64,000 nt of DNA, taken from NCBI GenBank assembly GCA_963969365.1, contig OZ017755.1:1240001-1304000 (forward strand), written 5' to 3'. Below are positions 2,664-59,775 of this stretch, piece by piece. Position 1 is the stretch's first letter, and every line of letters begins with the position of its first letter. The position numbers were made by a program, and so were the translations under genes. This DNA is from Asterochloris sp. CNOR1 (lineage: Eukaryota; Chlorophyta; Trebouxiophyceae; Trebouxiales; Trebouxiaceae). Below the pieces are notes generated by a model. That model was not told the DNA's origin, ran no database searches, and was given only the letters and a program-made list of their open reading frames with translations.

Positions 2664-5600
2664 ATGGTAAGGCACCTGCATCATGTTTGGTCTTGATCCT
2701 TGCAGCCGTGCTCCTGTGATGTCTCTCTGCAAGCTTCTCCCTCTCTGCATGCAGAAGTGCTCAGCAGGACAGGACCTGCTGGGAGCAGCTCCAGTCTGGA
2801 TATCTTGCATCATACTGCTGCTGATTGGATGGATTGTGGGCATTGCATGTGCAGCAGGTCAGTAGGCAGCCTGCAGGCCAGCTGAGGTATATACTGTGGT
2901 GTTCAACAATGTCAGCAAGTACCTTGTCTTGTGCCTGCAGCATGGTTTATATACCGCCAGCGTAAGATGTCCCGCTATTACAGCTCTGAGCCACACTTCG
3001 ATGCAGAGCGCCAGGCAAGCCATCTGTGTCTGTGCAGCTCTGCATATATGTGCACAGCAGCAAGAGATTAACGCAGTGCCTGCTGCCCTCCGGTCTCATC
3101 AGCCAGGGAAGGCCTGCAGCAGTACATGGCTGCAGCCTGCTGGGCAAGGGCAACACGGCGGCATGAAGGGCCAAGGCTGTGCCATGCACGCTCCTTAGGC
3201 AGCCTGATCAACATACTGCTCAGCCTGCTGCACCACTGCGATGTGATGTGCACCACTGTGATGCAGCTTCCACAGCAGCCTGGCAGCATATTGCTCTGCC
3301 ACTGCAGAAGGTCACCACACTGGACTGCTGGCCAACTGCCTGCCTGCTACTTCTTGTGACTCTTCTGGGATACGCCACAACAGCAAGACACTCCCCTGCC
3401 TGACACCCCCTCGCAAGTCACCGCATCTGTGGGCGGTCACGAGCCCTTCAGCACATGCCGCTGATGATCTCCCTCTGCCTTGCTGCCCAACTGCAGGAGG
3501 TTATCACGCCCAAGGAGCCTGGCCACAACCACTTCAGCACCTGGCGCATGCCGGCTCGCTCCACACGCTCAGCCTTTGGGCGCACCCCATCTGCAACCAA
3601 GCACGGTGACCCTGTCAGCCTGGCCCAGCAGCAGCCGCCCCATCGGGAGCAGGCGCCGCACGTGGAGGTCAGGCATACGCCAGCAGAGGCTGTCGAGCAG
3701 GCGGGGGGCGTCAGCGGGCCCCTGGGCATGGGCATCGTCTCACAGAGTGAGCACAGGAGCTGCCAACCTGGCAACTTCCTGTCTGCTCGCACCGCCCATC
3801 AGTGCAGCATCTTCACGGCGTTGCATATGAGTGGAAGCTGGGCGGTCGCAGAGTGGAAGCACTATACCATGTCATTGAGCTGCATTGCCAGCAGCCATGC
3901 AATTTGCTGATCACTTCTCGGATCCTCAAACTTTCAGCTGCAATTTGTCCTGACTTGTTTGATGAGCAATACTGCTAAAATTGCAGGCCATGCTGCCAGC
4001 TTGATGGGGTACAAGGTTGCAGGCATCCTCGGACCTGCCCCCAAATGCATACAGGCTTGGAGAAGGACCAGCTGCCACGCTTTGGCCTGAACTACCAGCA
4101 GGGCACCCCTGGCAAGCAGCCCATGGTTCCACCAGCGCACAAGCGGGATCTCTCTGTGCGCACCATTGACGACCTGCCTGACGAAAATGACTGGAAGCCC
4201 AATGCCACGAGGCCGCCTGCCAGCATCCCTTCATGGCGTGCCCCACTGGAGGCAAGGAGCAACATTGTGCAGGGGCCGCCCCCTGTGCCGCAGGTGGGGT
4301 ACGCAGCCGTGTGAGCGCAGCTGTGTTGAGACCCACATGATGTTTGAGCTGCTTGTGTTGTGGTCAGGTCAGCAGCAGATCTGTTTGCTAGCACCAGGCG
4401 CTTGATTCTAGAACTGCAAGGCTTGTGCTCTCTACTAGCTGCAGTTTGTGCAGCACTAGTGGTTGGGCATGCTGATGTTCAACAGCTTCTGCATTCCAGG
4501 TGACTAGGGCCCCTGCAGGGCCTGAGATGGGCCGGACCTTCAGCTTTCCCAAGCCAGATAAGTCATCTGGTGAGACAGCCCCCTGCAGAGGCACCATTTT
4601 GGCGGGTCATGAGCTGCTGCCTGCTAGAAGGGTGTGAAATTTGCTCACTTGGAACAACCTGTTCAGGCTGCATGCATGTGCAACATGTTGCATAAAGCCA
4701 TCAAGCACTACTGCAGCAACCCTGTGCGCACGTGCCATCCCAGCCTGCCCCTGAGCAGCCAGTCTGCAGCCCCTGCACCTTGCAAAACCCCATGGACGAA
4801 GCTGTCACAGCCACCATGCATGCAACTCCCAGCCTCCCCCTGGGCGGCTGAACAGGACCTCTTCATGCACAGAGGCAATGAGACCCTCAGCGATGCTGCT
4901 GCAATTACCCAGCACGTGTGTGCCAGGCTCAGCCTGTCACTCAGCCTGTCACTCACCCATGCTGTGCCTGCTCATCCCACCTTGCGAAAGCTGACAATGC
5001 TGTTGTGGCCGCCTTAACTCAGACACAGGCAATGACAATGTGGACTGTGCTGCTGCAGCCACCCTGAACAGGCATGCCGCGCCCAGCCTGTGCCTGAGCA
5101 GCTGCGCAGTGCACCTGCACAACCTCACAGAGACACTTGTAGACACTGAAGCTGCTGTTGCAGCCACCCTGCCTGTGTGCAGCCATGCTGCAGCCCACAG
5201 GCAGTAACAAACGCTGACAGTGCTGCTGCAGCCACCCAGAACCCACGTGCCACGCCCAGCCTGTCCATGGCGCGGTCCCCGCTCCCCAAGGCGCAGATGC
5301 CTGAGCGCAGGAGCTCCCAGACGCCGCCACCCCCGCCGCCACCGCCGCCAGCAGGGCTGCCGCCGCCTGCTCCTGCGCCGCCTCCACGAGCAACTGCGCC
5401 AGGTCAGTCAGGGCAGCATCCTTCCTGAGGACAAATGCTGCGCTTGCCCCCAAGTTGCCTTTGTGAGCATCATGAAGAGAGGCAGCTAAGCACTTTCAGT
5501 CAGGGTGCTGGAGAAGCTTGCTCATTGTATGCGTTCCCTACCAGAAGCGATCACAGATGCAGCAGCCAGACTCGATTGCTGCAGGGTGCAGAGCTATGTC

Positions 5601-7750: not shown

Positions 7751-8105
7751 CTCAGCAAGCCAGTCAACTGGCGTTGCTGGGTGGTGTAAATTCATGCTAC
7801 TTTGTTCACACTGCAAGTGAAACAGTCTCGCTCTACTTGGCAGGTCTGACAATACTATGTGCCCACATTTTATTTGGGTGAAGATATTTGGCCTGCTCCA
7901 TGTTGGATTACACCGAGCAGAATTTCACACTGAGTTTAAATTTATTCACCAGAAGCAATGTTGCATAAGTGCAACATGGCTTGCAGGCCTGCCAACAAGC
8001 TGGCAACCAGAGGCAGGGATGAAATAGCAATGCAGCTCTGCAGCAGGAAGTGTTCACAACAGACGGAAAAGCTTGGTCAGATGCGTTAGGGGGATGATGA
8101 TGATC
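7751..8105. other. Convergent 3' intergenic region
   Basis: 355 bp lie between the stops of the Pro-rich gene (+) and the four-helix gene (-). It has TGTAA at 7785 and AT-richer sequence (7850-7960) than the flanks, as expected for 3' UTRs. No gene was seen. Confidence 0.5.
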
Positions 8106-12600: not shown

Positions 12601-15600
12601 CATGGCTGGGGCAGGCCGCAGATGTCATGCACTGACAGAAGCCAGCATGCACTCATCCCCCGGACACACTGGCAGCTCAGTAGCTTCAAGCAATTTATGC
12701 CCAGCTGCAGCAGTACTCTAATGCCCACACTCCTGGCTGCGTGTGAGCTTTGCTAGCAAGAGCACCAGGAGCCATGTATTATGAGATAACGCCCCCAGCC
12801 ACAGGCCACATCGCCAGCACTGACAACAGCCTGCGACGCGCAGGTCCGCCTGCCTGCCTGGCTGCAAAGACATCCATGGGAACATCATCAGCAGCAGCTG
12901 GCCGAGCACAGCCACTGCTCACTTGGCTGTGAGTGAAGTCCCACAGCATGAGCACCGGCAGCAGCCTGCGCCGCACAGCCGTGCGGCCCATCCAGGCCAG
13001 GTGAGCGGAGAGTGCATCCACGTCTGGCCTGTGCTGCCAGCACAGCAGCTGGCCCTCACGCCAGCTGCGCTGTGAGATGAGGGCTGTCACAGCCTCGCGC
13101 GCCCCCTGAGACTGCTCCAGGTAGGCCCGCTGGGCGGCCTGCGCCCTGCTCTGGAACTCGCGACTGGCTTGCACCTTCCTTAGCGTCTGCAGGCAGCATG
13201 TGCACAGGAGTCAGCTGGCAGCCAGCATCTGGTGTAAGCCCTGGGTACTGTGCAGATGCCTATCTTGAACACAGCGCCTCTCAGGCTACTCAGCAGCCTC
13301 TGCAGCCACTGTAGGCAGCCTGCCCTGGGCACTTGCGCTGCTGGGGGGGGGGGGCCACAGGAGCCCTGCAGCTCTACAGGGCTTCTGCTGTCCCACACCA
13401 GGCGAATCCACATGCAGCCAGGGGCCCTCACCCTGTCGACCAGGCGATCACCCCTCCTTGTGTGAAAAGCACACTCGCAAGGAGCGTGGGGGCGAGACGC
13501 GCAGACAGCCCCTGCTGCGGCACAGTGGCTGCAATGGTTTTTCTTGGAGTGGTGCTGGATCTGCTGCTTCCTGTGGCCCTCATGCTTGCAAGTCTTGCAG
13601 CCTGCAGGCAGGTAAACACTACAAGCGCCAGACGAGCACCTGCGCACACATGCTTGGGAATGGGCTGCTTGCCAACCCCTCACACCCAACAGCATGCTTG
13701 CAGTGCAGGAGGCAGGCCCAGGGGCGCCAAGGTGCTGCACTACACATGCAAGCTTTAGAAAGCACGCAGCTATTGACGCTCAGATCCTGCTGGTGCAGCA
13801 GTACTGGCACCTTGCAGTGCACAGAGGCAGGCGGTCTGATGCGCTCTGTGCAGAGCTGCAGCACCACTGAGCATGCCACCCCCCGCAGAGTTGGCCACAG
13901 CAGCAGCATGGCACCTGCCTGTGCACTTGGTGATCTCCTGCAATTCGCTGCTGGGTGGCTGGTCCAGCACAGCTCCCAGCCTGTCCAAGAGTCCAGCATC
14001 ATCCTGCAGGCAGCATTCATGCACTGCTCGGTATGTTGCAGTTCTCAAACTCTGCAAAAGAGTGAGCAATGCGCTGTGTCTGGTATGATGTCTGTCCCAC
14101 TGCCCACTGACGTCTTGCAGTCGTCATGCAGTGCAGCGTTCAGCATGTTGGGAGTGCGCTGAGGTGCTAAGCTGGTCCCCATTGGGATGATGGCATTCTA
14201 GTAGCCTGAGAGGCCTGCAGTGGTCAAGCCTGCAGCGGACATTGCATCGCTCAACTGTGTCACTGGCTGCTACTTGAAATCAGCCAGGCTGCTCTTCTGC
14301 AGCTCATTCAGCATGTGCTTTGTTGATGGAGGACTGGTTCAGGTGATGCAGGGATTGGCACTGAAGCATATACAGCCTTGCTTTGCCTGATGCTGATGCA
14401 GGTAGGAACAGACTTACATCTGAGTCAGCTGGAGTCTATCCTTGACGTCGTGCAAAGCGATCATGGAATGCTCAGCATGCTGCTGCACCTTGCGACCCTC
14501 CAGCAGTTGCTGCAGCAGCGCCCGTGCCCCCACCCCTCCAACCTTCTCAGCACCAGCAATGCCGTAATCCCCGCCTGCGAGCATGTAATGTGTCAGCACA
14601 CTGCGTGCAGCTGCTTGGAGTGTGTGTGGGCTCAGATGACAGCGGTCTGAGATGTGACAGCACATGTCGGTCTGTTGGAGCCAGGTGCACAGGGCAGACA
14701 GGCTTTCCAGGTCAGATTGAGCACCCCAGACAACTCCCCTCACCCTGCTGCATGGATGCCATCCCATGCAGTCGCGTCAACACCACGCCCATGCCCATGC
14801 AGGCATGTGAGCAGCCCTTCTCAGCAGCAGGTGTCACCAAGGCTGCATCACTCCCTGGAGGCGCAGGGCACCCATGCACAGGGCCAGGATGTACATCTGC
14901 TGGGGCAAATGTTGTATGGCCTGCCTCAGTGAGAGCAATGCCAGCTGGGGCAAGCTCCCCATGGCCTGCCTCACTTGAGAGCAGTGCCAGTGCAGACCAC
15001 CAAGAGCCGCTGTGCATTGCACCCTACTGGTGAGAGGCGCCGATGCAGGACACGAGGGAGGCTGTAGACTGCAGGCCTACCTGTGAGCAGCGCCAGGGCG
15101 ATGAGGGCCTCCTGCCCTCCCCTGGTGATGCCCAGCAGCTGTCGCACCTGGCCCGCCGTGCACTTGTGCATCTCAGCCTTGTCAGGGCTCAGTGTCTGCA
15201 AGCAGGCAGCAGAGCTGTCCTGATGGGGCAGGTCCTGCACTGTTGGTCTGGGCACCAGCACTGGGCAGGCAGCAGGGATGCGTCAGATGCAGAGACAGAG
15301 CTGCCCCTGCAAGGATGAGCATGAACATTGCAGGCAATCAGGGGGGACAGCCGGGAGGTAATCTGTGCCACCGCCTCCATGACCATGCATGCCGGCATCG
15401 CCCCACCACCTCTGTGCAACAAGACCACAGCTGGTCATGTATGTTGTCTGCCCGCCCACCTGCATGCTGAGGGTGTGGAAAAAGGCTCTTGCACCAAACA
15501 CCAGCACACCCCCTGAGGTTCAGCCCCTAAGCTTGGGATGCATCTCCTGAGGAGGCACAAGTCTGTGCAGGCAACCAAAGCGCAGGCAGCATGCAGCTGC

Positions 15601-17825
15601 GCTGGCGCCTCCAAGACAGCAGAAAGGCGCACACCTGTGCAGCAGGCCTACCTGCAGGCTGAGTGTGTGATACACCGTCTCAGCGCCAAACACGAGCACA
15701 TCTCCGTCCCTCGTGGCCACTCCGGTGACCAACCCAGCAACATTCAAGGCGGCACAGGTTGCCTCAGCCTCCCCTGGGGCGTCCACGACGGGAAGGCCCT
15801 GCAGCCCCGGGCAGAAGGGCTGTAATCAGCATTCGGGGCTGCACCGTTTGCCTCAGCGTGTCCTGGGGCCGTCACCCCAAGCAGGCCCCTGTGTCGTCAG
15901 GCAGCACCCTGTGGGTTGCTTCACACAGGGGCACCTTGTGCTTAATGCATGCTCTGTTTGGTGAGTGAGAGACAAAGACAGCCTTTGAAGTGATGGCATC
16001 TGTGCAAGCAGCATGTGCAGAAGACAAGTGAACCTGACTTCCACTTGTGGCTGATTACAAGCAGCCGAGCTGCCTTCACGTCCAACTAGGCATGCGCCAG
16101 GACACCGCGTTGGGTTGAGCAGGCTGCGCAGGCAGGGCCACGCACCAAGGCGGTGAACACCCTCGTAGCCTGTCTGCAGAGGGCCAGAAAACGCTCGTCC
16201 CCACCTCCTCCGCCCTCATAGCCGGTTTGCCAGAAGAATCTGCGCCAGCCCCAAGTAAAGGATGTGTCAGCTGAAGGGCTGCCTTGTAGGTGGAGGTATT
16301 ATGCCATGCTCGCAGGCCTGCAATGCAGCCGATGTGCATGAGCCTGTGCACACAATGGATGCACCGCCTGGACCATAATTTCAGTTCTCTGGCTCACAGG
16401 TCTTGTCAGCTGCAGGCACTCTTGCCTATTAGGCAGGCAGGGCCTCACTGACTGCTCATGGTCACTCACGGGTCTCAAGGGGACATGCACAGGTCGATCC
16501 CAGCCACTCCTGCATGTTGTGGTGCTCACGTGGCTGGCCCAACCCCGATGCGGGCACTTGCCCTTGTCAGGTAAGAGGGCTTGCTCCAGACAGCCAGCTC
16601 ACCTCTGCTGCAGGCACGCGAGCTTGCCGGTCAAGCGTGTTCCAGGCTGCCGGCTCAGCTCTGGCGCAGGCGGTGAATGCTTGAGTTGCAGGTAAGCACT
16701 GATGCCCACCAATGTGCTCAGCAATATGAACCGGGCAATCTGCCTTGAGGGACCTGGCTCAGCCTGGAGTAGGCGCCTATGTCTGCCAGGCAGGGGGGCT
16801 GCAGGCCGCTTGCTCACCTCCGGCGCAGGCACTCGCGTTTCTCTGCAGGCTTGACGCCGTCAACCACACCGACAGGTAGACAATTGTAGCGCAAAAAGTT
16901 GACTGCCTGCCGCCAGCACACAGACAAGGGCTCAGAGAGCCAGGAGTACGAATAGGGAGTGGGCCCAGCCTTCCACAGACGGGCCGGCAGGGCTGCGTTG
17001 CATGGGGGCTGCTCTCACGGGGAGTCAATTGCCTGCTGCCAGTGTGCAGGCAGGGCTGCTGTTAGGGGCCTTTTGTGATGGCGAGTGGCCTTGCCAGCCA
17101 CCAATGTGCAGGACGGGCAGAGTGGCTCGTGGGGCCTCCAGCTGCAGAGCTGAGCAGTCTGGCAGGTCTCATGGCCGCCTGGCACTGGGGCTCTGAGCTT
17201 TGTCCTCAGCACAGCAGAGTTGTCGCCCGTCGAGCGCCTGCACAGCCATCCCCAGCACGATGCCAGCCTGCTGCTCACCCGGTTGAATGCCACAGTGGCC
17301 ACCCTGTGCAGGGGGTCTTCATGCACACGGACCAGGTCCGGCTGGCGAAGCGCCTGGAACACCCAGTTGGCCAAATCCACCGCCACAACCTGCAGCACAT
17401 GGCTCCTTCAAGCTGGTATGACAATCGCGGTGCTAGGTCCACATGAGGCTGGCTAGAGCCAGGCTGTGCTCACAGCAGTTGTGACAGCACTGGGGATTCG
17501 GAGCTTCAGTGTCAAGGAGCCTCAACAGCATGTAGGCCTGTCAATGCCCATAAACCTGCACCCTCCCACACAGCAGCATGGCCGACACCAGGCTGTATTT
17601 GGCCAGGTGTTCACAGGGTGCCGCCTGCCTTTCAGCTGCGCGACTGCATGAACCCCACAGCAGTGTGCTGCCGACAGGGATCCTGCAGGCAGATTCCTGT
17701 GGGCTCGGGCTCACCAGGCCATCTGCCTCATCCACTATGGTTCTGTGCTGCCCCAGCAAAGAGCCCTGCAGGATGGAGACTGCGTCTGCTTCCTTCAGCA
17801 GGCTCCATAGCTGCGCAACCCCCAT
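9656..17825 (-). CDS. GEN1: GEN1/SEND-type XPG-family structure-specific endonuclease (Holliday-junction resolvase)
   Basis: The N-terminus MGVAQLWSLLKEA (exon 17825-17715) runs in phase into VVAVDLANWVFQAL (17389-17279) and AVNFLRYNCLPVGVVDGVKP (16906-16818), the XPG-N region. The XPG-I exon 15798-15652 carries VVDAPGEAEATCAALN and TRDGDVLVFGAETVY. Exons 15195-15081 and 14574-14489 give ALALLTGGDYGIAGAEKVGGVGA. All the metal-binding acidic positions expected for the FEN1/XPG superfamily are present. A Cys/His cluster KCTGCKTCKHEG spans the junction of exons 14003-13919 and 13601-13432, as in plant GEN1, and requires a GC-AG intron. Further exons (12.8-13.2 kb, 12.4-12.6 kb with a WRYVLQWERL chromo-like block, 11.7-11.9 kb, 11.0-11.5 kb, 10.2-10.7 kb, 9.66-9.9 kb) make a long low-complexity tail. 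The exon linking XPG-N to XPG-I (15.8-16.8 kb) is not resolved. Predicted role: cutting Holliday junctions and flaps in the nucleus. Confidence 0.85.
15455..15715 (-). repeat. Duplicated 3' edge of the XPG-I exon
   Basis: The exon end encoding VLVFGAETVYHTLSLQ followed by GTAGGC (about 15652-15710) recurs about 190 bp downstream in its own intron (about 15459-15515) as VLVFGARAFFHTLSMQ followed by GTGGGC. Reading frame, length and donor are all kept in the copy. Confidence 0.75.
16590..16854 (-). repeat. Three copies of the third GEN1-like exon 3' edge
   Basis: The exon end/donor (GTGCCTGCGCCGGAG|GTGAGC on the minus strand, near 16812-16832) has decayed copies at about 16645-16685 (CGCCTGCGCCAGAGCTGAGC) and 16590-16632 (GTGCCTGCAGCAGAGGTGAGC). 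Confidence 0.65.
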
Positions 17826-21242: not shown

Positions 21243-24200
21243 ATGGATCCCCAAACGCTCGTGCAGACATTGTCAGCATGCTTGAGTCCAGTACAGGCAG
21301 ACAGAAAGGCTGCCGAGGCTCAGCTAGCACAAGTAAGAGTTACATCTTGTTGTCAGTTGAAGTTGAGGCCTGGCTTGTTATTACTAGAACTTTGCAATGC
21401 CATTGAGCCAAAGTGGCACACCAGCAATCATGAAGATCACCATGCTGCACAACTGAGGGTTCGCGTACTCTTAGGCTTGTGCCAACATTGCTACTGGCGT
21501 TTATTGGGCGGCATCCTGAGCATCGACATGATGCTCATGGCCATCGCTGCCCGTCTTCTGTCAGTCAGTCTGCATGCCGGACACCTGGAGGCCGCCTGCC
21601 TGGCCCTCTCCTGACAGGCATGAGAGCTGACAGGCAGGCAAATCGGCCATCAGGCCTGCGGCTGCTGTGCAGGTGCAGCATGCCCCTGGCACGCTGACCA
21701 ACCTGCTGCGGGTGGCAGTGGAGGGCTCCTTGCCTGTGGAGGTGCGCCAGCAGGCAGCCATCCAGGTCAAAAATGTCTCAAAGCGGGCATGGGAAGCGAC
21801 TGAAGGTGAGCCGGACACACTGGGAGCTCCCTTGTGCCAGACATTGCTGCACGAGTGCTTGCCCTGAGGGCCAGCAGGTCATTGTAGGAGGTGCTGCCTG
21901 GGGGCAACAGCAGGAGTGCTGGCTCTGGAGGTCAGCTGGACCCGCTGGCTTGGTTTGAGTGCCTGTAGCAAAGAGCTGACAGCACTCCAGGAGGGGCTGC
22001 ACAGGGTATATGGCTGCACTGGTGCTTGCACAGCAAGTCTGCAGGATGAAGTGCTTGCGCTGGACACATTGCTGAAAGCAGCCCCTTAGGTGCCTGAGCT
22101 CATTTGATACATGAAACATAATTGCAATGGGGTGTGTGGTCTCTTAGAGGTGCTGGCTGGCTGTTGCCAATCAGGTGCGTGCTGCTCTGCAGATGAGCCT
22201 CGCCTGTCAGAGCAGGACAAGTCGGCAGTGCGGGATAACCTCTTGGAGGGGGTCACCAGGTGAGCAGCCTGCCTCAGGCCACCACGGGGCACGATACTGC
22301 AGAGCACGGGAAGGACTGCAGAGTGTTGTAGGAAGAGATGGGCGATGTCAGCCATCGCGGCCCTCTCGCTGAGCTGCTTCTGAGCTCAACAAAGAAACTG
22401 GGGCAGCGTGCCTGTGACGTTTGCTGGGTTGTTGCTTGGCCCTCACAGATGGAGAAGGACAAGGCAGCAGGGTTGCAGAAGTTGTTGGAGGCGTCACCAG
22501 GTCAGCAGCCTGCATCAGGCCACAAGAGAGTACGAAACCTTCAGCAAGCTCGGGGTGCCAGCTGGAACTGTGATGCCGTTGACCGGATGGGGCACAATGG
22601 CAGCACTGGCTGCCAGCTCCTTTTGGCAATTTTGAGCTGTTTCCTGCTGAAGCATGGCTTTTCAGGGCATGCCTGTGACAATGCTGGGCTGTCACCTGAC
22701 GCCCACACACAGAGCTGGACAGAGCAGCAATGCAGGAAACCTTGCTGACAGGCTTCATTGGGTCAGCAGCCTGCCCCTGCTGGTGGCCTCAGTTGCCAGC
22801 TTTCAGTGGCAGCATGAACAGACACTGCATCATTGCTTAGCACCAACAGGCAGAGCAGATTCACTGCTTTGCCAGCTTGGGCTCCAGACACAGGGCTGAG
22901 GGCTGAACATCCGCCACTGCCCCATCCAGCATGCTCACGGCTGAGCAAATCCCTCTTTTTGCTGCTGACAGATCGCCGCCGCTCATCAGCACCCAGCTGG
23001 CAGAGTGTTTCAAGTCTATTGCCCTGTGTGACTACCCCTCCCAGTGGTCGGGCCTGCTACCAGCCGTTGTGGCAAAGCTGCAGGCCAAGGTGCGTTTGCC
23101 TGTAACACCCCAAGACATTGCTGTCATGATGGCCTATGACTGAGCTGCAGAGCATTTGCTGTAGCCCGCAGCTCTGTCAAGGGAGTGGGTTGCCGCCTGT
23201 GCACGTGCATCCAGCAGGCCAGAGACTTGCCGGGCAGCCAGAACAGGGACCGGGTAGAATGCACATCTGGGACCCTGCTGCTGCGTCCTCTCGGGGGATT
23301 GAGCAATGCTGCCAGTCGCTTACTGATGAGCAGTGGCACTAAATGTTTCCCCTGTGCTTGCACAGGACCCTCGGTCTTTGCACAACATCTTCGTGCCTCC
23401 CCCATCTCCAGGAGGTCTGCTTGATAGCCTCTGTATGCCTGCTCCACGTGCTGCATAGGCCCACTGTGCCTGTATGCAGTGAGCAGATGCAGAGACTTGA
23501 ACCTGTACATGTCTGCCTGTGCAGGACCCTCAATCCCTGCACGGAGGGCTGGTTGCGCTGCGCATCCTGACACGCAAGTACGAGTTCAGGACTGAGGATG
23601 ACAAAGGGCCCCTGCTGGAGATTGTAGATGCAACCTTCACCCTCGTGCTGCAGCTGTTCCAGGTCAGCGACTCTGCTTGAACTTTGACAAAGCCACTTAT
23701 CCTTGCAATCTGCGGGTCTCCTTTTCCTGAAAGCAATGGATGTTGAAGGGGACTCAACAAACAGAGATGGCACAGCTGATACTCTTTGAGCACTGCTGAA
23801 AACCTGAATAATTGGGCCCTTGAACGAACCCCTGCTGAGCCTGTCTGCTGCCTCTCAGGCAGTGACTGCCAGCCTTGAGCATGCACCTCAGGAGCTGGCT
23901 GACTTTCTGCTCTCCATTGCATGCATGGCATCAGCCTGCTGATGTCCTAAACGGCCCTGCATGCAGCCCTGCCTGAAGCTAGTCCGCCAGACCATGTGCC
24001 AGTGCATGCATTTCAGCAGCTGGCCAATTGCTGCATGTCTGTGTGCCGCACTGCCCTGGAGCTTGACGCCCCTCATTGCGCCGCATGTGGCCTCCAGCAT
24101 GCACGTCCATGGCTTCTGTGTGCAGCACTGCCTGGGGCGGGGGAACATGTCCCCTGACGAGGCTCCATGCGTCATCATAGCTTCCTGCTTCTCTGTGTCC

Positions 24201-41160: not shown

Positions 41161-41374
41161 GCTCGATGGTGCTTCTGATCCAGGCTGATGACACTTACGA
41201 CCTGCAGCTGCATGGGTGCATAGGCATTTCGGCATAGCTCTTGGCACCAAATGCTTTTTCTCAGCAGGCACCATAGTACTCCAGCTGAAGTGCGACGGTT
41301 GTGCTGTTGAGAGAAAGTGTTCGGAGCAGAGAGCATGGCTGACTTCCCTTTGCACCCATGCTGCTCTCTCAAGG

Positions 41375-41554
41375 GTGTGTGTCTCAAGCTTGGTTCTGTC
41401 AGCCATGCTTCCAGAAATTGAAGAGTGCTGACACTGGACGGGTGCTCTGTGGAGCATGCAGCTTAGGTTGCAGGCTCCATAGAGCACCTGTCCAGGGTCT
41501 GCACTCTTCAGTTTCTGGCTGTGGGCTTTGCAGAACCAAGCTTGAGACACACAC
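41375..41554. repeat. Inverted repeat: 81-bp arms, 18-bp loop
   Basis: Arms 41375-41455 and 41474-41554 are reverse complements. The outer 24 bp match perfectly and the inner 57 bp match at roughly 80 percent without gaps. The stem may extend about 14 bp further with gaps. The RNA would fold into a long, slightly mismatched hairpin on either strand. On each strand the arm reads CVSQAWFC..., which loosely resembles a zinc-ribbon half (W-x-C-x2-C), so the structure may be an inverted copy of an RPA1-like exon. Confidence 0.85.
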
Positions 41555-41998
41555 TCCTTTAGGCAGAGCTTGTCTGTCCCATTGCAGTCTTTCTGAGCTG
41601 GCATACCAGAGACATGACGTTCCCTCTGACTACAGGCTGCTGCCTTGAGAAATCAACGCTAAGCAACGCCTGCAGAATGGGAGAAGGACCTCGAAGTGCC
41701 AGTGCCTGATGGGGTCCCTGCTCAACACTTTGCTAACAGCTGGAGGCAGGCTGCAGATGGCTGTGCTGCCATCAATTCTGATCAGAGAGGTGCATGAATG
41801 ACAGACCTGAGCCCCCTGTGTACACCTGCTGGATTTGCTGCCTTGAGCCCGCGGCAGCCCAGGCGGCGCCCCCTTGCGCAGAGCCCCTGAGCGGCTGGTT
41901 GCGGGAAACTCAGATAGCGCAATGACAATGTACAAGCAGATGTGTGGCTTCACCCCGTACACCATGCTACATTCAACAAATTAAAGACTCTAGACTGC

Positions 41999-42539: not shown

Positions 42540-45500
42540 TCAAGGCAACCACAAGTCATCAGGCTGCGTCAGGACGTCTGTGAAGGCCTCTTGCTGTAGG
42601 AGGATTGTCAGCATTTCTGAGATGAAGGTGTCATCGGGTCTGATGCCAAGTGCTGTGTGGTAGTGCTCCACTGCCTGCTCTGACTCTCCCTGGAGTTTGC
42701 ACAGGACATAGCAGGCTCAGCTGAGGGAATCTAGCACAAGTGCAGTGGTGGGGCGAATTAGCTCAGCAAGCAATTTGGTCAGGCTATGCAGCACCACACG
42801 CACACACGTGATCACACCCAGCTCAGGCCTGCCCTCCTGGCTCAGCTCAGATCTGGTTTGTGGCTCAATTGAGTTTAACTTGGCTGCACCATACGCACCA
42901 TAAGGTGGTGGGTGAAGCCCAGTGCGGCATAAGTGCCTGCCTGCCCAGGCTTCAGGCCAAGTGCCCGCTCGTATGTGGCAATGGCATTGCTCCACTGCCA
43001 CTGCTTGCGATACATGTGCCCCAAATTGATCAGCGTGGGCTCCCAAGCTGCAGACGTGGCAGTTGAGGCTTTTTGACCTGCCATGCACGACAAATAGTAC
43101 TGCATCTGCCTGCGATAGCATCAAGACACACATTGCGATGCTTGACCATGGGCTCGTGGGCTGCACGGATATGATGCTCCAAGCAGAAGAAGCGAGGAGC
43201 TGATTGTTATAAACATGCGGCATGAGGAGGGTCAAAAGATGGCCAACCTTCAACTTGCCAGGCTTGGAAGAACAGGCCCAATAGCTGATCTCACCACCTA
43301 CACCTACACAGCCTCTGGACACAGGACTTGCTGGGATGACCACAGCCAGCTTACCAGCTGTAAGCTTGCCAGGGACCAAGTCCAGCGCTCTCAGGAACCA
43401 ATGCGTGGCATTTGCATGCTGGCCCTTTCTGGAAGCCAGAACGCCCAGCTCATTGCAAGCCAGGGGCTCGCAGGGGCTCATCTTGTGTGCCTGCAAAATC
43501 TTCACAACATGCTCAAGGCCAGCACCATTTCCACAGATGGTGGGGTGAATCTGCGTGCCAATGACGCATACGTAGCAGCATCTGGCCAATCTCGCTGTTG
43601 GCCAGCCGGTCAGCTGAGAAGACAAGGCTGTTGCAAAAGGACTCAGGTTTCCTTTCTGCACGATGAGCGGCTGTGCCAGCCAACAACACAGAAGGGTGCC
43701 GCTTGGGCAGTGCGGGTTGTCCCACCTGCTCAAAGAGCTGTTCTGCCAGGTGCAGGTTGTTCATGCGTTGATACTCCATGCCCATGCCCACCAGTGGCAG
43801 GTGCAGCCCTGGGAAGAGCCTGGCAGCCGTGCGGTATGCTGCCATGGCCTGCAGGCAACCATTCACATGGTCTCCTTACTGCAGCAGACCCATCTGCACT
43901 GGTGCTCGCCTTTGAAATGTTAGCAACATGTGGCTGGTGGTGAGCAAGCCCTTCAAGATGCAGGTGCAATGGGGCTTGAGTGCATTACACCGCTACTCAA
44001 GGGCTTCCAATATCTGCCTGCAAGAGCTGGATGTATAGCGCGCCCGCCTGTGCCAACTCTGACTGTGCCGATCAACTCCTGCATACTGCACGCCCTATAC
44101 TGCACTGCACTGAGGTGCAGGATTGTCGCACCTGATCGCTCTCATCCTGCGCTGCAAAGGCGTTCCCAAACCCGATCCATGCAGGCGCAAAACTGCTCTC
44201 CAGCGTGGTGGCCTTTCCAAAGTACATACGTGCGCTCTCAAACTGCTGGGTGCACAGGTAGTAGCATCCGACAGCAAACCAAGACAGCGCCCGCTCTGGA
44301 TACTCCTGAACCAACCTGCACATCAGGGAATGGCACATTGCTGAAGAGATGAAAAGGAAGCAAAGTGATCCTACACAGCCCACATGGCAATACCTGGACT
44401 GCTCCATGCAGCACGCATCAAAGCAGCACTAGTTACTCGGACACTGCAGCGGACTGGCCAGTGAGTGCAGCAGCAAGCAAGTGGCTCTGTGGGACCTGAG
44501 GACTCAGCTGCTGCCCTGGAGGTATGTGAGCGGCAGTTGCCATGTGCCACAGCAGCAGGGGCTTGCCAGAGAATGCAGCTTTACTTCCTGTAAGGCATGA
44601 TAGCAGCAGCTGCCATCTGACTCAGGCGGCCTGCTCCACCTGTGACCTCTTCAGAGGGTGCAGCTGCACCTCTTGCAAGGCTGGAGAGCAGCAGCTGCCC
44701 AGATAGTGTAGCCTGCCGTACCTGTGGCCCCTCAGAAAGAGCTCATTCTTCTTCTGCAGCTCCACACAGGCAGCGATGTGGACAGGAAACACCTCCAGCG
44801 CGTAGGCATCTCTGCTCAGCAGCTGCGACGTGAGTGCAAAGCATTCCTGCAGGGTCACACATGACGTGATTAGCAAGCCGCAGCAGTGCGGCAGCTGGCA
44901 GATACCTCTGGCACGAACCCTGCAAAGCCCGGGACAGTGGTGCAGGCAGTATTGGGCCTGTATGGGCAGGCAAGCACAAGCTTGCTGCAGGGGCTTCTTG
45001 CAGAGTCGTCAACTGCGCTGCGCCTGCACCCAACAGACGGCCACACAAAGGCATGCAGACAGGGGTGCACCAAGGACACAGTCGCATACCTGGAAGGCAT
45101 ACACGTTGTACAGCCACTCTGCCTTGCACAACAGGACGTGCAGGTTGCCTGCCAGCCCGCAGCCAGGCCCAAGCACAGGCTGCAGCTGGGAGCCATCTTG
45201 GGGCCCAGGCGTGGCCAAGTCCATGGGCGTGTCCTGGGCCCCCTGCACTGAACTGTCCCCCTGCAGCTGCCTCCACTCCACGCCCTGCAGGTTGTGCAGG
45301 TGCTGGCTCCTCAGCAGAGGCCAGCAAGAAATGCCTGAAGACTGAACTGGGCTGGCCCTCCCTAGTAGGTTCACATGCTCCAAGCTGTGCAAACGGCATG
45401 ACGACCACTGCTCATCAAGTGTTGTGCCCATTGAGGTGGCCCGCCCTTTCTGCAGAGCAAGCCAGTGCATGAGCCTTGGCGTCGCATGATCTTTGCAGTG

Positions 45501-51214: not shown

Positions 51215-54165
51215 AAGGCTCCAGCTCCAAATGACTGCTACTTGCTAGGCCAAGGCTTGAGAGTTGCTGAGGCATGCTTTGACGAACCTGCAGAAAACAG
51301 AAGTCAGGCGTCCAGCATGTGCTTGACAGAAGCACAGCTTGATTTCAGCTGAAAGGCTCACCTGTTCAATCATGTGGCGGCAAGAGAGAAGAGGAAGCTG
51401 CAGCTTAAGCTGCTGGGCATCCCTGCTGATAGATGCATCTGCGCCAGAAGCTGTCACAGCAAAGGGTAGATGCACCTGGACCAGCTTGCAGCCAGGCACC
51501 TGCAAAGCAACACCAGCCTGCCGGTTGTGCATGTCAAGCCCAGCATTTTGCTCAGGGGGCAGCTTGAGAGGGCAGCAACACTACCAGGCCAAGCAGGAAG
51601 GTGAGCGCCACACCTGCAGTGAGATGTCTTCATTGCAGACTGCAGCGTTGACATCATCAGGACTGATCTGGCAGCGAGCCTGCTGGCGGCCCAAGCTGAC
51701 ACTGATGGAAACTGATGTGACTGGGCGCCCAATGAACTGCACTGTGGGCGTCAGCTGGCATGCTGCGGGCCCGCTGACGGGGATGGCTGGTGATGCTGCA
51801 GACGCTGGCTTTCCTGCAGAGGAGGAACGGTGTTGGGCTTATCTGTGGCTGCAATGCTGCAGCTCGCTGCAGCTCTCTGCAGCTGCAGGCATACGATGCA
51901 GAGGCACTCTTTGCTGCTGCACTATGTAGAAGGTGCACCCGGGCCATGCCACAGAAAGGGGACCTCGTGAACTTCTCGTGAACAAGGTCGGCTGGGCACA
52001 AGCTCTCAGCAGTTGCACGGCCTCTCATTTGGCTGGACAGGCTTGCTGTATGCGGGGCCCCATGCTTCTCCTAGGCCTCATCAACCCCTCAGCGCGCCAC
52101 AAGTGATCTGCCCCTCACCCGGCTAGGCTGGCTTGGCCCTGGCAGGGGCCTTGTCCGTACACAACAGCAAGGGGGACCTGTGCCAGGACATGATGCGGCT
52201 TGTTCAAGAACCCCTTCATGACCTACAGACAGAGCAGCCCACCTGGCTGTGCTGGCTTGGGCTTGGCAGGCGCCATGCGCTTGTCAAACCTGAGGGGAAA
52301 CTCTGGCTCCTCCTGCACATCCCCCAGCTCTGTGATGCGCGCCTTGCTGTCCACTCTGATGCGTTGGGACTCAATTCTATCTCCCTTGTACCTCATCTTG
52401 GGCAGCTTCCACTGCTTGTCCAGCACAAGGCTGCACTTCTGCTCTGTCTGGCTCATCGCAATGCTGATCACGAAGTTCTTCAGCGGCCTGGACAGGTGCA
52501 CATTGCTGTCAAACCTTGTACAGGCCGCAGATTGCATGTTGCGTGCCACACTGAGACACCCAAAGGCAGTCATATACCTGCCAGCACATACAGCACTGAA
52601 GAGGCAGGGCCATCACATGTTTGAGATGGGTGTGCAACATATCACAAGCCTTTCCCCTGCCCCCCTCCACAATTTTGCAGCCAAGCTCATCTGGCAGCCC
52701 GTGCCTGCGCCAGCACATCATCATGAAAAGTACTGTCAGCCCCTCTGACCATCCATGCAGCACTGCAGACCTGAACTGGCGGACCCAAGGACAGCCCTTC
52801 CCTGACCTGTGCAGCACTGCACACCTGAAAGCCCGTGACTGCGTCAGCACATCATCATTGAAAACGACATCGACCACAGTGCAGGCCTCCCCCTGGCGGT
52901 CCATGTCCTCGCGTGCCTCTCCACAGCTCAGGGGGATGCGCAGCGCAGACTCGACCTGCTCTGAGGACATGGCCGCGTTCTGTGCGTCCAGAGCTTTGCG
53001 CACCTCCTCTGGCACCTGCGCATCGGGCACCCAGCTTAACAGATTGTCGCGGAGCAGCAGGGCCGTGCCTGCAGAGAAGGCACCATTTGTTTGCTGCCTG
53101 CTTTGGCACCTGCAGTCTCTTTCACGAACATTGGCTGGACATGCTTTGCCTGGTCTGGTATGGGCCTCATTGCGGACGTCCAGGGCCTGCTTTGCGCACC
53201 TCCCCTGGCACCTGCACACCAGGTTGTTAGCCTGCTGGGCTGGACCCAGCGCAGTAGGCCTCATTGTACATACTGCAGCTTTGTGCACCTCCCCTGACAC
53301 CTGGACAGGAAGGATCTGGCATCTGAAATTTGGCTGGCAAGCTCAGGGCCTGGCCAAGTGTGTGCCACCTGCACACTGCAGCACTTGTTGTTTCGCACCA
53401 TCTGAGGCTGCTGGCAGCAGATGTTTGTAAGGCGCTGGCGCACTAGGTCAGCCTGTTTGGGACCACGCAGACCAGGTCTGCTCAACGCTAAGGCTGCTGC
53501 CGTCGAGCAATAGATGATGGCAAAGGCAAGCCAAGCCAGGCTCTTGGTGACCAGAAATGTCATGCCTGCACATGTCCTGCAGCAATTGCAGACAGACATT
53601 GCCGCAGGAGTCGTCCATGCCAGCCAAATCAAAATGCTAGCATGGCGCTGTGCTTGCCTGGCCGTATGTCCAGTTTGCTGGGGCTGGCACATGTTTGCTG
53701 CTGCACATGTTGATGAATACTTTGCGGCCAGCCTCATCAGCAGTCTTCACCACAAACCTGCAGCCAACCTGAGGTGCCTGTCATGAGAGGACAGGATGCT
53801 GCAAAGAGCCCTGCAGAAACATGCAGCACATCTTGGATGGGCAGCTGTACAGGGAGCAGACAGCGTCCCACCCTGCGCTTGGAGTGATGTCTTGGCCCTG
53901 TGGCCCCTCAGATGACTGTGGCTGCTGTGGAGCCGCACCAATTGCCTCCAGCAACTTCTGCAGGCAGCAAACAGCCACGTCCAATCAGATCAGATGCAAG
54001 CAGGTTCAAGGCAACAGCTGCCAGAGTTCATTGATCAGGCCACCTTAATGTGCGGCGGTGCCTTCTCAGGATCTGGACTGTCTCCTGCTTCTCTGAGGTA
54101 ATCCTCCATCATGCCCATCATAGCCTGCATCTCATCTGGCTTGAAGCGATCCATCATGGTGTCCA
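51215..54165 (-). CDS. PIH1-domain protein (PIH1D1/MOT48-like dynein or R2TP assembly factor)
   Basis: Exon 1 (from ATG 54165) reads MDTMMDRFKPDEMQAMMGMM and LREAGDSPDPEKAPPHIK. After an Ala/Gln-rich exon, VGCRFVVKTADEAGRKVFIN and MCSSKHVPAPAN (about 53.66-53.77 kb) open the PIH1 domain. DAQVPEEVRKALDAQNAA, LRIPLSCGEAREDMDRQGEA and CTVVDVVFNDDV (52.8-53.0 kb) follow, then FDSNVHLSRPLKNFVISIAM, WKLPKMRYKGD and QRIRV (52.3-52.5 kb). The C-terminal CS-like domain contains NAAVCNEDISLQVPGCKLVQ and QLKLQLPLLSC (51.4-51.7 kb). Known PIH proteins join HSP90-R2TP to assemble axonemal dyneins or snoRNPs and PIKKs. Which paralogue this is cannot be settled by eye. The stop is placed at 51215 by phase (ELEP then TAA). 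Confidence 0.83.
52697..53302 (-). repeat. Exon copies inside the PIH1-gene introns
   Basis: (1) The exon end encoding FNDDVLTQSRA (about 52831-52875) has a copy about 134 bp away at 52697-52741, keeping ATGATGATGTGCTG and GCACGGGC-like ends. (2) The mid-exon stretch GGTGCCAGAGGAGGTGCGCA (about 52970-53025) recurs at about 53158-53215 and 53247-53302 as GGTGCCAGGGGAGGTGCGCA and GGTGTCAGGGGAGGTGCACA. Confidence 0.75.
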
Positions 54166-54434
54166 TGCTAGATCGAGCAATTGTCAGATACGGTCACCTG
54201 AATGCACACAGCAGAATGCAGACAGCAGCATTAGCCTGGGGCACCGTAGTCCAGTTGCCACCTGCTTGCCTGTCACGTCCCTCCCATGCAACCAGCTACA
54301 GTGCAGCTCAGAATGGGTGCAAGAGGCAAAGAGTTGTGCAGTGCTCAGCTTCCACACCAGGTGCGGCCCTGCTGCTCTGTCACTTGCTGCTTGAGCTTGT
54401 CAGCAGCTCATGAGCCGATGAGTGTCTGCTGCAG
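54166..54434. promoter_or_regulatory. Divergent promoter region (PIH1 gene / DUF4864-like gene)
   Basis: About 270 bp between the PIH1 ATG and the first sure exon of the next gene. The start codon and a possible first exon of the DUF4864-like gene (for example around 54313) probably lie here. No clear motif. Confidence 0.4.
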
Positions 54435-55209: not shown

Positions 55210-55488
55210 CCGCTGGTTAGTCCTGGGTCGTTCTGCCCAGCCTGCCGCCAGCCTGCCATGCAGGCGTCTCAGGTATCAAAGCTTGCTGCATCTGGCAGCG
55301 CTGTACACAAGTGATGCACCATCGAACCCCAGCGCCAGCAAATGAGCAAACTGTGGAAGGCGTCAGAAAGTAACGGGACAGGAGGTCAATTTGAGTTACA
55401 AGCAGCATGTTTAGTTGACCGAAGTGGTCTTCACGATAAGGTGCCTGCATGGCTTTGTCGCTAGTACCTCGTTTCCATGTAAACACTC
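55210..55488. promoter_or_regulatory. Intergenic between tandem genes
   Basis: 279 bp between the DUF4864-like stop and the EME1-like ATG (55489). It holds one 3' end and one promoter. No motif recognised. Confidence 0.4.
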
Positions 55489-58400
55489 ATGGACAATGTC
55501 GTGGATTTGACGAGCAGTCCACCTGCTCAGACAGGCCTTGGAGATCAGCAGCCTCAGATTGTTTGCAGTGTGTCACTCCTCACTGACAGTGATGATGACC
55601 AGCAGCCTGACCACTGTGCAGCTGCAACTAAGGCTGTTGGTGACATTGGCAGGGGAGCCAGGCGCATTTCCCTGGGCTCACCAGATGATGACCTCCTCAA
55701 ACCGCTGACCATCAGCAGCCAGCACAGCAATGGGCACGGTCCTGGAGCTGTTCTTTCAGGCAGGGCCACTGGCGCTGCATCTCGATGTTTTGCGCAAAGA
55801 GTTCCTGGGCACAAGCCTTGCACAGTAGATGCCCCAATGTCAAAGCCGCAGCATTTGCAGGGCGGCAACCCCTAGGCGTCAGCACACTCGCTGAGAATCC
55901 TGCACCTCAGAAACTGGGAGATGTTGGCGGGCTCTGTGCAGCCGATGGTTTTCTGAACAGGTATGTGCCTGCAAGGGCTGGCCTGTCAGTGTGCATAACT
56001 GGAACTGGGTCTTGCTGGGGTCTCACGGCATTGTGACAGACATGCCTGCGCCTTTAGCGATGCAAAAGGCATGGGGTCAGCACCCCAGAGATGCAGGCTG
56101 CAGGTGGGCCTGTCGAAGGCGCAGCCAGGACATGGCAACAACATGCTTCACCAATCATGTCTCTGCTGCTGATTGTCAGCAGCATGACTGCACCTTGTCA
56201 AGCCTTCCTGTGGCGTGCAAGGCGGCTGGTGACATGAGTACAGTCTTCCTTGTGCATACCATGAACTTGACTCAGTACCACACAGGCCCGGTGGGCTGCT
56301 GCAGGGTTCCCGCAGACGCTGCAAGCCAGCAGCACGGCGCAGATGCAGATGACGATTGGCAGCAGGAGGAGTCAGATGGAGAGCGCCCCGGGGAGACAGC
56401 AAAGCAGAGGGCAGCCCGTAGAAAGCGGGAGGAGGCAGCTGCCCGCAAGCGGCAACGGGAGGCGCTCCAGGAGGAGAAAAGGCAGCACAGGTCAGTGGCT
56501 GCCTCCTGATGGGGCCCCGAGTGCACTCAAGCAGGACACTCTACTGCTACAGTAGCATCTATCTGCTGCACTGACGGAGCGCTTTGTGCCATCCTGAGAA
56601 AGACTGCAGGAAGGCTCCGCTGGCTGACTGGTGGTTGCGGGGCGTGCTTCTCCTGATCATGTGCATCTGTGCAGACAGTACGCTTCTCAGTATGCAGTGC
56701 ATGTTGCAGCTTCTGTGATCGGTCTGCATTGCATACTGAGCCCTCTGTGCAGTGCATTCTGATGCTGCATTGGGGATTGACATGCGCTGCAGGCGGAAGG
56801 AAATAACGTTCTCTGGTTTTACAATCCATGGTGCTGCTGCATTGGAGGTTGACGTGCTCTGCAGGGAGGAAGAGAAGCGGCAGAAGGCTGCGGAGAGAGA
56901 CCAGAACCGGGAAGCTAGAGGTGACTTCAAATCAGCCACGTGCAACTGGATCTCCTTCCTTGCAGTCAGGCAGAGCTCCTGGGCTGTGTCCTGTGCCAAC
57001 GCGAGCATGAGAATTGTTTTTGGGACCGCAAGAAGAGTGTCACGGTGAATGCCTGAGTCGCGTCCTGGGCAGTGGTGCAAAGCAGGGGCTTGACCACAGC
57101 GCAGAGCTTGCCCTCAGTGGCAGGTCTTGACACCTCTGGATGTGCAGGCACAGATTGCCTGCAGCGCATCGTGGCGGTGTTCGGCACCACTCTGGCGCTC
57201 CACCCTGCAGCCCAGGCCGCTATGACACGCCTGCAGGACCAGAGGTCAGAATTTCTGTGTCTGACACAGCCAACGCTCTGCAGCCAGGCCATGCAGCTGC
57301 TGCACACATGCTGTGCTCGCCGGTCATGGAGCAGGCAAGCAGTGCGCAGCTGCCTGAGCAACACGATGCTAGCTGCCTGCCTGCACCGCAGCCTTGTACA
57401 TGCAGCATGCTTGGAGCATGCTCCGCCAGAGTTGCTGCACAGCCAGCCTGCAGGCATGCTTCCCCTCCGCTGCAGGACAGTCTCAGGCTTCCCGTGCCCG
57501 CACGGCATCCGCCGCCAGATTCAGCAGCTCCCTCTGGACACTGCATCACGAGGGGACAGGCCTGCCCTGAGGAGCCTGTGCTGGCGGCGCCTGGTGGGGG
57601 CCATCCCTGCCCAGGATGCACCACTGCTGGAGGCAAACATGGAGTACTTCCCCTATGTCCTGCTGCTGTTTGAGGTGACTTCGCGATCTGTGTGCCTTGC
57701 GAGGCAGGCCCGCCTGGGTGTGGCCAAGTGACTGAAGAGGCCCTGCATATCTGGCTGTTGGGCAGTGACGCAGCCTTACAAGTCCACCAGGCCGGGCAGG
57801 AGGGAGTCTGGCCTGGCTGAGTATGTTCACGCCTGCAGTGGCAGGCCAACAGTTTCAGGCTGCCTCGAGCACTGCCGCACCAAGCCAAAGTGGCAAGTCG
57901 ACAGTGTCAGGCCGTCGCAAGCTCAGCCCAGCCACAGTCTTGCCCTGCCTGCAGGCTGCCCACTTTGTGGCGGAGGTGCAGGCAGACTACCTGCAGTCAG
58001 CCCTGCAGGCCGTGGCGGCTGCCCACCCTGGGTGCACCCTCAGCCTGGTGGTGCAGGGCCTGAGCGCCCACCTGCGCCAACAGGTGGCTGCTGGCTTCCG
58101 TGAGGACATCAGGGCCGGCAGGACAGCTCAGGCTGCTTTCAGGTGGGGACGGAGGGGGCTGTGGAGCAGCCTGCTCAGGGCGTGGCTTGATGTGCTGGCA
58201 GGGCAGCCAACGCTGCCTTGTAGTGGAGATTGAGGGGCTGCCAGGCCAGGCGAGGCTGCCTTCAGGTGCCAACTGATGGGCTGCCAACAGTCTGAGAGGG
58301 CCCTTGGCATAGAGATATCCATGCCAAGAGGGTGGCGGCAGAGGCTGGCAGGAAAGCCCAGCCTGCTCCCTGGTTGGGACAGGCAGCCTCGCTGAGGGCC

Positions 58401-59775
58401 TGGCCACACAGACTGGCAGGACAAACCTCAGATTGAAACGGAGAGCCTTCTGCACTTGGCAAGATCTGAGGACAGTCCATTGATGAATGAGGGGCCACCT
58501 AACAGCTGCAGCCCCCTACAATGTCGTGGCCATCCAAGCTGACTTGTGCTGGCCCTGCCATCTGCCCTGCTCACATGCATGGCAGTGGGCTCTCTCAGAA
58601 GAGACTTGGAGTCCGTGCATCACAGGGTGTGGGGCTTTCCAGCAGACAGTGGAGGCGGGATTGCTGTGCCAAAAGCCAGCTCACCTCCAGTGTTTGGGGC
58701 TGCAGTCGAGCCAGTGTTGATGATTTCATGGGTGACCTGGCTGTACGGTGGCCAGGAGTGACCCACCGTGTCACCCTTGACGCCCACCAGACAGCTGAGC
58801 ACCTGCTGTACACCACCATTGCCCTGGCCAAGCAGCCGTCCACAGACCAGGTGAGCCCCATGGCTCAAGACCTGTCACGACCCTGGCTGTGTGCTCACGT
58901 CATGCCTTGCTGCACCCATCAGCGCTCTGCTGCAAGACTTCATCAACAAGGGTTCCTCTGCCAGGGGCCCCGTTGCAACAGACACGCCTGCACCCTGCCC
59001 TGTGCAGGTACGCTGCTGATCGCTTTGCTTTTGCATGCTGCAGCAACACTTCCTCAGGGACTTTGGTGGCCAGAGCACAAGTGAAGCCATGCTCAAGATG
59101 CTGCGCATGAATCCCCTGGAGCAGCCCGAGCGCCGCACCCTGTTCCATGCACTCAACAAGGTGCCCCACTTGGGGCCGCCCAGCGCCTGGGCCATCACTG
59201 AGCGCTTTGGCAGCCTGGGCAACCTCATGACCTCATTCATGGACCCCAACAGGTCAGTCCGCCCAAAGAGGCAGAGCAGAGAAGAGCAACGTGAAGCTGT
59301 GCCTGCCTACAGGTGGGACTCAAGTGGTCACTCATCCAGGGCAGATCAATTCCTGATGCCTGGCGTCAAAAGTAGCTTGCAGCTTCCCATGGGCACCCCA
59401 TGGCGCCCATCAGGCAGCTCTGTCTGCCCAAGAACAGGCGGCAACACAACTTGCAGCCGCAGATTGCCTGTCTGATTGCTGCAGTGCATGCAGCAGCTGG
59501 CGGCATGCCCCAAGCACACGCTACAGGGTGTAATGGGAGCAGAACTACTGGGCAATTCTGCACTTGCAGATTGTTGTCATCAAGGCTCAGGACTGTGTTG
59601 TGTTCTGGTTAAGACACGATTGCGAGCTTGCTGCAGGAGTGAGAGCGACAAGAAGGCCCTGGTGGCAGCCCTGACCCAGCCAACAGGCCAGCAGCGCAGA
59701 GTGGGCCCTGCCACAGCACAGAAGCTATTCACCATTCTGACCAGCACTGACCCTGATGCCGTAGTGGAGGCCTGA
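55489..59775 (+). CDS. EME1: EME1-like subunit of the MUS81 structure-specific endonuclease
   Basis: The N-terminus MDNVVDLTSSPPAQTG is acidic and low-complexity. A Lys/Arg/Glu-rich coiled coil follows (QRAARRKREEAAARKRQRE, then REEEKRQKAAERDQNREARG), as in EME1. The degenerate nuclease-like domain includes LQRIVAVFGTTLALHPAAQA, LRSLCWRRLVGAIPAQDAP, MEYFPYVLLLFE, AAHFVAEVQADYLQSALQAV and VTHRVTLDAHQTAEHLLYTT. The C-terminal helix-hairpin-helix part is FLRDFGGQSTSEAMLKMLRM, ALNKVPHLGPPSAWAITERF and VGPATAQKLFTILTSTDPDA, ending TGA 59775. I see no GDXnERKX3D active site, as expected for the non-catalytic EME partner. With MUS81 it would cut nicked Holliday junctions and 3' flaps. Borders of the exons at 55.8-56.3 kb and 57.0 kb are uncertain. 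Confidence 0.75.
58105..58440 (+). repeat. Copies of an EME1-like exon 3' edge
   Basis: The exon end GGCAGGACAGCTCAGGCTGC...TTTCAG|GTGGGG (about 58117-58147) is echoed near 58198 (GGCAGGGCAGCCAACGCTGCC), 58241 (GGCCAGGCGAGGCTGCCTTCAGGTGCC) and 58348 (GGCAGGAAAGCCCAGCCTGC). The 58241 copy keeps TTCAGGTG. Confidence 0.6.

Follow-up and report, generated by a model that had tools for sequence, protein, structure and literature searches.

Do introns of the green lichen alga Asterochloris sp. CNOR1 carry degraded copies of their own exon edges, as a sequence-only reading of one 64-kb stretch had claimed, and if so, which process put them there? For this, the whole stretch (the window; C10:1240001-1304000, the genome comprising 21 contigs and 56.38 Mb) was analysed together with six other places, namely 200 kb from contigs C1-C4 plus 90 kb from C5-C6 that were added afterwards to serve as held-out set, giving 354 kb of the 56 Mb genome. 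Gene models came from a hidden-Markov gene finder, self-trained, which on the initial 264 kb settled at 47 genes; their splice signals were strong (donor AG|GTGAG, acceptor TGCAG|G), and the frozen model was then applied to C5-C6. The finder produced spurious small exons and at times called the copies (echoes) exons, and exons shorter than 45 nt were therefore merged into introns. Its intergenic share was 9%, versus about 26% in the available text of PMC6652019, where Astpho2, the JGI genome of Asterochloris sp. Cgr/DA1pho, is given as 56 Mb, with genes that have about nine introns each and with roughly 5% of the DNA repetitive. For the importin-7 gene of the window, the joined exons formed a stop-free stretch of 2988 nt, and the protein matched Astpho2 protein P0001 at 95% across the full query length, with a gap at exon 10 (26865-26963), which is absent from P0001 and supported by Trebouxia protein P0002. 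Residue differences were few in the exons present in both proteins, and P0001 was concordant at most common joins, some exon ends having been set with its help.

For each intron, the 60 exon nt next to it were aligned locally with the intron itself, the best alignment being scored, and a match was called at p <= 0.01 on both of two controls, the same 60 nt against introns of other genes and the edges of other exons against the same intron. The upstream exon edge (last 60 nt) matched its own intron in 38 of 454 introns and the downstream edge (exon start) in 27 of 454, compared with 4/264 and 4/268 for exon interiors and 0.4-1.1% for the reverse complement of the own intron. Upstream-edge matches came from the window (12/107), C1 (4/93), C2 (7/90), C3 (8/78) and C4 (7/86), and the excess was present in 7 of 7 sampled places. 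The held-out set gave 13/135 and 11/135 for the edges, 1/81 and 0/85 for interiors, and 2, 2, 1 and 1 for reverse complements. Over the whole 354 kb, 72 of 500 donor regions and 57 of 500 acceptor regions had a match, and echoes were found in 114 of 500 introns and 37 of 62 genes, with per-gene match counts showing no over-dispersion across the 62 genes (chi2 66.6, 61 df). The median intron length was 457 nt with an echo and 251 nt without. Chance similarity through composition, in CTGCAG-rich sequence, would fit the apparent abundance of TGCAG and GCAGC words, which makes a by-eye reading doubtful; its probability is negligible, since introns and exon edges from elsewhere in the genome served as controls, as did reverse complements, and the excess was six- to eightfold over the 1% expected and was replicated in the held-out set. 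Single weak echoes may be due to chance (about 10 of the 114 expected). The echoes are real, not a product of chance or composition, and general within the sampled 354 kb: the refutation test set beforehand, own versus other introns with composition controlled, was run on this sample, and the claim that introns hold degraded copies of their own exon edges survived it.

Within the window, the importin-7 gene (+ strand) carries several echoes. Exon 3 (22193-22259, set with the help of P0001) is the source of a three-unit array, of which the first intronic copy (22452-22554; 78%, offset about 242) comprises the exon end and intron start and crosses the donor site, and the second (22667-22774) is 70% identical to 22406-22513 at an offset of 261; the alignments inspected cover mostly exon ends, the exon 3 copies representing nearly the whole exon. 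The end of exon 7 with its donor (25189-25232) recurs at 25356-25383, 25446-25465 and 25528-25571, the last at 84% and retaining CAG|GTGAGG. At this third echo the ab initio finder took 25461-25565 for an exon, which illustrates a practical cost, as gene prediction can be misled by an echo that has an open frame and a good donor. Further echoes derive from the ends of exon 6 (24349-24390, echoed at 24468-24508; 80%, p = 0.05 in one test), exon 13 (28859-28893, at 29000-29034; 80%) and exon 15 (30547-30614, at 30707-30775; 74%, crossing the donor), and two exactly adjacent 102-nt units (31843-32046; 71%) are present, the second running into the start of exon 17. On the same strand, a Pro-rich gene has, in intron 4570-5231, an echo at 5024-5096 (81% over 73 nt) of the intron end and start of exon 5232-5402 (source 5196-5269), with further copies of this exon start near 4889-4942 and 4708-4759, and an EME1-like gene (so named in the earlier reading) has an echo of acceptor junction 56822-56872 at 56750-56799 (80%) and two of donor junction 58113-58202 at 58235-58420. 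Four genes on the - strand were likewise affected: an XPG/GEN1-like gene with an XPG_I domain (segment 12941-12978 near an exon end, echoed at 12806-12843, 76%; exon end 15646-15705, at 15454-15513, 78%), a CCZ1-like gene with the longin domain of INTU/CCZ1/HPS4 (start region of exon 37759-37918, source 37877-37913, echoed twice at 37973-38094), a TPR gene (donor junction 44662-44736, at 44577-44655; 75%, offset 85) and a PIH1 gene. In the latter, donor junction 52204-52277 is echoed at 52078-52153 (73%), exon end 52810-52864 at 52676-52729 (83%) and segment 52971-53027, about 42-98 nt inside the exon start, twice at 53163-53312 (81% for the nearer echo).

The copies are local direct repeats with a median spacing of 141 bp. 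Annotation-blind self-BLAST returned 76 + 26 direct pairs (102) less than 500 bp apart and 4 + 2 (6) at 500-3000 bp. Inverted pairs below 500 bp that were not hairpins numbered 2, in addition to 20 hairpins. Head-to-tail units were seen in the sampled stretches at 31843-32046 of the window, C3:43669-43968, C4:5648-5849 and C2:7127-7253; for most echoes the rest of the unit beyond the aligned copy was undetectable. Many duplications cross the exon-intron border: among donor copies running past +16 the intron flank carried on in 10/17, and among the acceptor equivalents in 5/9. In a whole-genome search that scored only the best candidate matches, three echo regions out of the 114 echo introns matched only their own locus, with no introner-like spread. 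Donor and acceptor sides differed modestly (72 vs 57 of 500; 38 vs 27 of 454), and more so for junction 50-mers (49 vs 24 of 311). Intron interiors were duplicated as well, with matches for 22 of 148 mid-intron 160-mers and 4.5-4.8% in three intron-only 50-mer classes, and the proposal that introns grew specifically from their ends is not supported. Exon-edge 50-mers (8-13%) lay about two- to threefold above the intron-only classes, near the twofold excess that drift in just one member of each pair would give. As regards a splicing-specific origin, duplicated 50-mers amounted to 45/610 in introns, 5/165 in intergenic sequence and 2/85 in long exons (reverse complements 6/610, 2/165 and 2/85), which hints at an excess in introns over an intergenic sample that is small, the finder's intergenic share being only 9%.

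We consider it likely that the echoes stem from short tandem duplications, that those crossing a junction left a piece of exon edge behind as intron, where it then decayed neutrally, and that the duplications came in an old wave that has largely ended. Stretches of about 65-270 bp inside genes would have been duplicated in tandem, and a duplication over a splice junction would leave the gene with exon edge, splice site and adjacent intron sequence in duplicate. With the outer, original junction still used, the extra exon edge would turn intronic and the protein stay unchanged, the intron being lengthened by roughly the copy spacing; reading frame and protein match suggest that outer junctions did remain in use. 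The stranded copy would drift neutrally beside a constrained true exon, so that an exon-to-copy pair would decay at about half the rate of an intron-to-intron pair and be visible longest, and this slower decay would make introns look like echoes of exon borders. Most visible events would belong to one episode, at a neutral distance of about 0.2-0.28 substitutions per site, whose cause may have been an earlier shift in the fidelity of replication or repair, or else a period of strong drift. The account incorporates the observed locality, direct orientation, presence in all sampled places, tie to exon edges, frequent junction crossing and neutral-type divergence of the copies.

The copies were dated by their divergence, as had been proposed. 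Exon-to-copy identity was 0.807, 0.786 and 0.729 at codon positions 1, 2 and 3 and 0.691 at four-fold sites, a gradient indicating a constrained exon beside a drifting copy; exon synonymous sites had seemingly drifted too, indicating that time has passed. Substitutions between exon and copy comprised 298 transitions and 290 transversions with extra CpG change, and indels 47 gaps in 2603 exon columns. Among intron-to-intron pairs, 11 of 15 fell at 0.67-0.76 identity (median 0.72), compared with exon-edge medians in the same introns of 0.76 (donor) and 0.80 (acceptor), a modestly greater divergence as expected if both members drift. The identity of the 74 exon parts averaged 0.773 (sd 0.060), and an identity of at least 0.90 was reached by 0/34 donor alignments and, in the whole sample, by 1/74 exon parts. 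This age structure is the most surprising part of the finding. Repeat-induced point mutation or error-prone copying was rejected as the reason for the missing young copies, as rates per site (C>T 0.105, G>A 0.095, A>G 0.160) and the Ts:Tv ratio of 298:290 were ordinary. Assembly collapse of young copies is unlikely, as TRF detected two young repeats, one a pair of 39-bp units (100%) and the other an array of 31-bp units (96%). Duplication of such shorter units continues; TRF found no array with a period of at least 40 bp at >=90%.

A steady, still active slippage or break-repair process that lengthens introns by tandem duplication would produce the same anatomy as an ended wave, and the two young short-unit arrays and a single 60-nt exon-to-intron pair at 91.7% are in line with it. 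A constant-rate simulation, however, placed 30% of detected donor alignments at >=0.90 identity, where none of the 34 was seen, and only 7 of the 102 self-BLAST pairs less than 500 bp apart reached >=90%, just 1 of them being at least 40 nt long, so that we regard continuing activity as quite improbable. The near absence of young copies suggests that the duplication process has apparently largely ended, which also argues that the replication-slippage or break-repair habit suspected earlier lies mostly in the past; we infer an old wave of short tandem duplications that is largely over. Somewhat less improbable, though still unlikely, is non-tandem patch copying, in which exon-terminal segments were inserted nearby during templated end joining and a full tandem unit never existed. 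It would explain why the aligned length had a median of only 41% of the spacing in 34 donor matches and why, of 20 donor and 15 acceptor copies that stop close to the splice site, 1 and 0, respectively, had a similar flank at p <= 0.01; the case at C2:539742 points the same way. Templated insertion gives inverted copies too, however, and inverted pairs other than hairpins are nearly absent here (2 pairs), the intron flank carries on in 10 of the 17 longer donor copies, and a simulation of old tandem duplications yields much of the stop at the junction. With whole units duplicated in tandem (t = 0.24, indel ratio 0.25), 51% of simulated alignments were junction-bounded at an identity of 0.775 and a length/spacing ratio of 0.46, compared with 53% (18/34 donor alignments stopping near the splice site), 0.773 and 0.41 observed. 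The simulation fits imperfectly, which again favours patch copying: it was too poor in long alignments (13% vs 29% observed reaching +44). In simulations with a broad age range only 5-20% were junction-bounded, the share rising to about half at an older age. Simulated detection at that age was 24-47%. Tandem duplication as modelled thus appears to reproduce much, not all, of the alignment pattern, and a mixture of ages or mechanisms is possible.

Where the copies lead at their far side bears on templates and on intron origin. The downstream flank of donor copies matched the start of the next exon, as spliced mRNA would continue, in 2/20 junction-bounded and 0/17 longer copies, and the flank of acceptor copies matched the previous exon in 0/15 and 0/9. 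Insertion templated by cDNA or mRNA finds no support in these counts, and a separate RNA-linked class of junction-bounded copies was rejected, about half of such copies being given by the older simulation anyway. The same flanks count against the birth of echo introns from a duplicated exon piece with AGGT (the Rogers model), which puts the upstream-exon copy at the 3' end of the intron, running into the next exon; donor copies, moreover, begin 60-324 nt into the intron in a scan that started at +60. Although at C3:43669-43968 the intron start itself resembles the exon, in units of about 70 nt, intron birth is extremely improbable as the general explanation. Selection retaining echo edges as decoy splice sites or regulatory pseudo-exons, another suggestion of the sequence-only reading, is very improbable. 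GT was retained in 35/47 donor echoes versus 332/588 (56%) of exon-side dinucleotides at -14 to -2, and 15/34 echo donors had GT and a score above the 10th percentile of predicted donors, but exon-side dinucleotide -7 was retained nearly as often (33/46), alignment bias could account for the modest GT excess, the copies contain small indels and diverge in a neutral-like manner at all codon positions, and intron interiors were duplicated too. Decoy selection has no clear support, and cDNA patches and, as judged from the three echo regions searched, introners are not supported; copies as a neutral by-product of tandem duplication, with the protein intact while the outer junction is used, are the simpler reading.

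It is conceivable, if no more than tentatively proposed, that an ancient wave of short tandem duplications, acting genome-wide across and inside introns, largely determined how long introns are in this green-algal lineage, and that the process then shut down while short-unit slippage continued. Were this true, perhaps a third or more of introns would have been enlarged, counting hidden decayed events, and exon edges would act as molecular clocks dating the episode; if long introns of other chlorophytes arose likewise, this would offer a mechanism for a trait noted, and left unexplained, in Chlamydomonas. Intron lengthening has, to our knowledge, been less studied than intron gain. Exon-edge echoes provide a marker with a constrained partner, by which single events of intron growth become recognisable and roughly datable from one genome, and make the question testable in any intron-rich genome.

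A literature search, mostly without subscription papers, found no genome-scale account of introns holding copies of exon edges, of a wave that has come to an end, or of this density or age structure; the process itself was already known. As Gao and Lynch reportedly described in 2009, short duplications inside genes are common in eukaryotes and one way in which introns arise. Compared with internal duplications of that type, those described here appear mostly to extend existing introns, affect 37 of 62 sampled genes and are decayed, with young members almost absent. Tandem exon duplication, as in mutually exclusive exons, also places copies of exon sequence side by side; here most alignments comprise only exon ends, and the copies have diverged like neutral sequence. 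The available text on the potato RdRp gene (PMC4974935) reports an intron gained by tandem duplication across an intron-exon border, and also an intronic tandem duplication of 83 bp that did not alter the gene structure. As far as the accessible accounts go, the former and the Hellsten 2011 cases share with the echoes a duplication crossing the border, but they are single cases making a new intron, whereas here no new intron was found, the existing one growing and an exon edge being stranded. A review table, in the part available, counts 188 intron gains by tandem duplication and calls the mechanism prevalent (PMC3443670). In Daphnia, internal direct repeats from staggered double-strand breaks are given for 55/90 new and 100/617 established introns (PMC4202315, available text); these are likewise local direct repeats with a proposed passive trend to longer introns, but the exon-matching repeats measure 4-12 bp and lie in newly gained introns, while the copies here are mostly 35-100 nt and old. 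Introners, as portrayed in the accessible part of PMC9860276, resemble the echoes in that sequence ends up as intron in many genes, possibly episodically, yet they are element families copied between genes, whereas the echoes searched were private to their own locus. Taken against these systems, the echoes represent a known process, apparently at an unusual density as judged from this alga on its own, made visible by the asymmetry of decay between an exon edge and its stranded copy.

Of the local duplications in the 354 kb sample (the window and six other places in the same genome), the youngest few included two on contig C5, a 60-nt pair at C5:532008 and 532131 with 91.7% identity and two 39-bp copies with 100% identity at C5:513332–513410, which provide helpful material for a study of the mechanism. 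The density of local same-orientation repeats, as detected by annotation-blind self-BLAST, differed by region: just three pairs less than 500 bp apart were found in 40 kb of contig C6 (C6:500001–540000), compared with 23 in 50 kb of C5. On contig C2, an exon start and its copy (C2:539742–539839 and 539948–540043) showed 87–89% identity, several synonymous differences and dissimilar flanks; by our reading the duplicated exon is prolyl-oligopeptidase-like, and the copy may formerly have been coding.

In importin-7 introns of the window, echo or near-echo sequence (decayed copies of the adjacent exon edge) was predicted as exon by the self-trained hidden-Markov gene finder (25461–25565 and 28335–28405), suggesting that automated annotation of genomes of this kind may yield gene models with false exons derived from echoes. 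Predicted introns in the 354 kb sample showed an excess of phase 0 (358, 200 and 200 for phases 0, 1 and 2, respectively, counted before micro-exons were merged into introns).

Hairpins were recurrent (20 in the 354 kb sample), including a long one at 41363–41569 of the window, with 86-nt arms (41375–41460 and 41469–41554) of 83% complementarity and an 8-nt loop, and other long ones at 41206–41365 and 40050–40167 of the window, C2:541530–541710 and C4:522670–522823. These hairpins may represent foldback or MITE-like elements.
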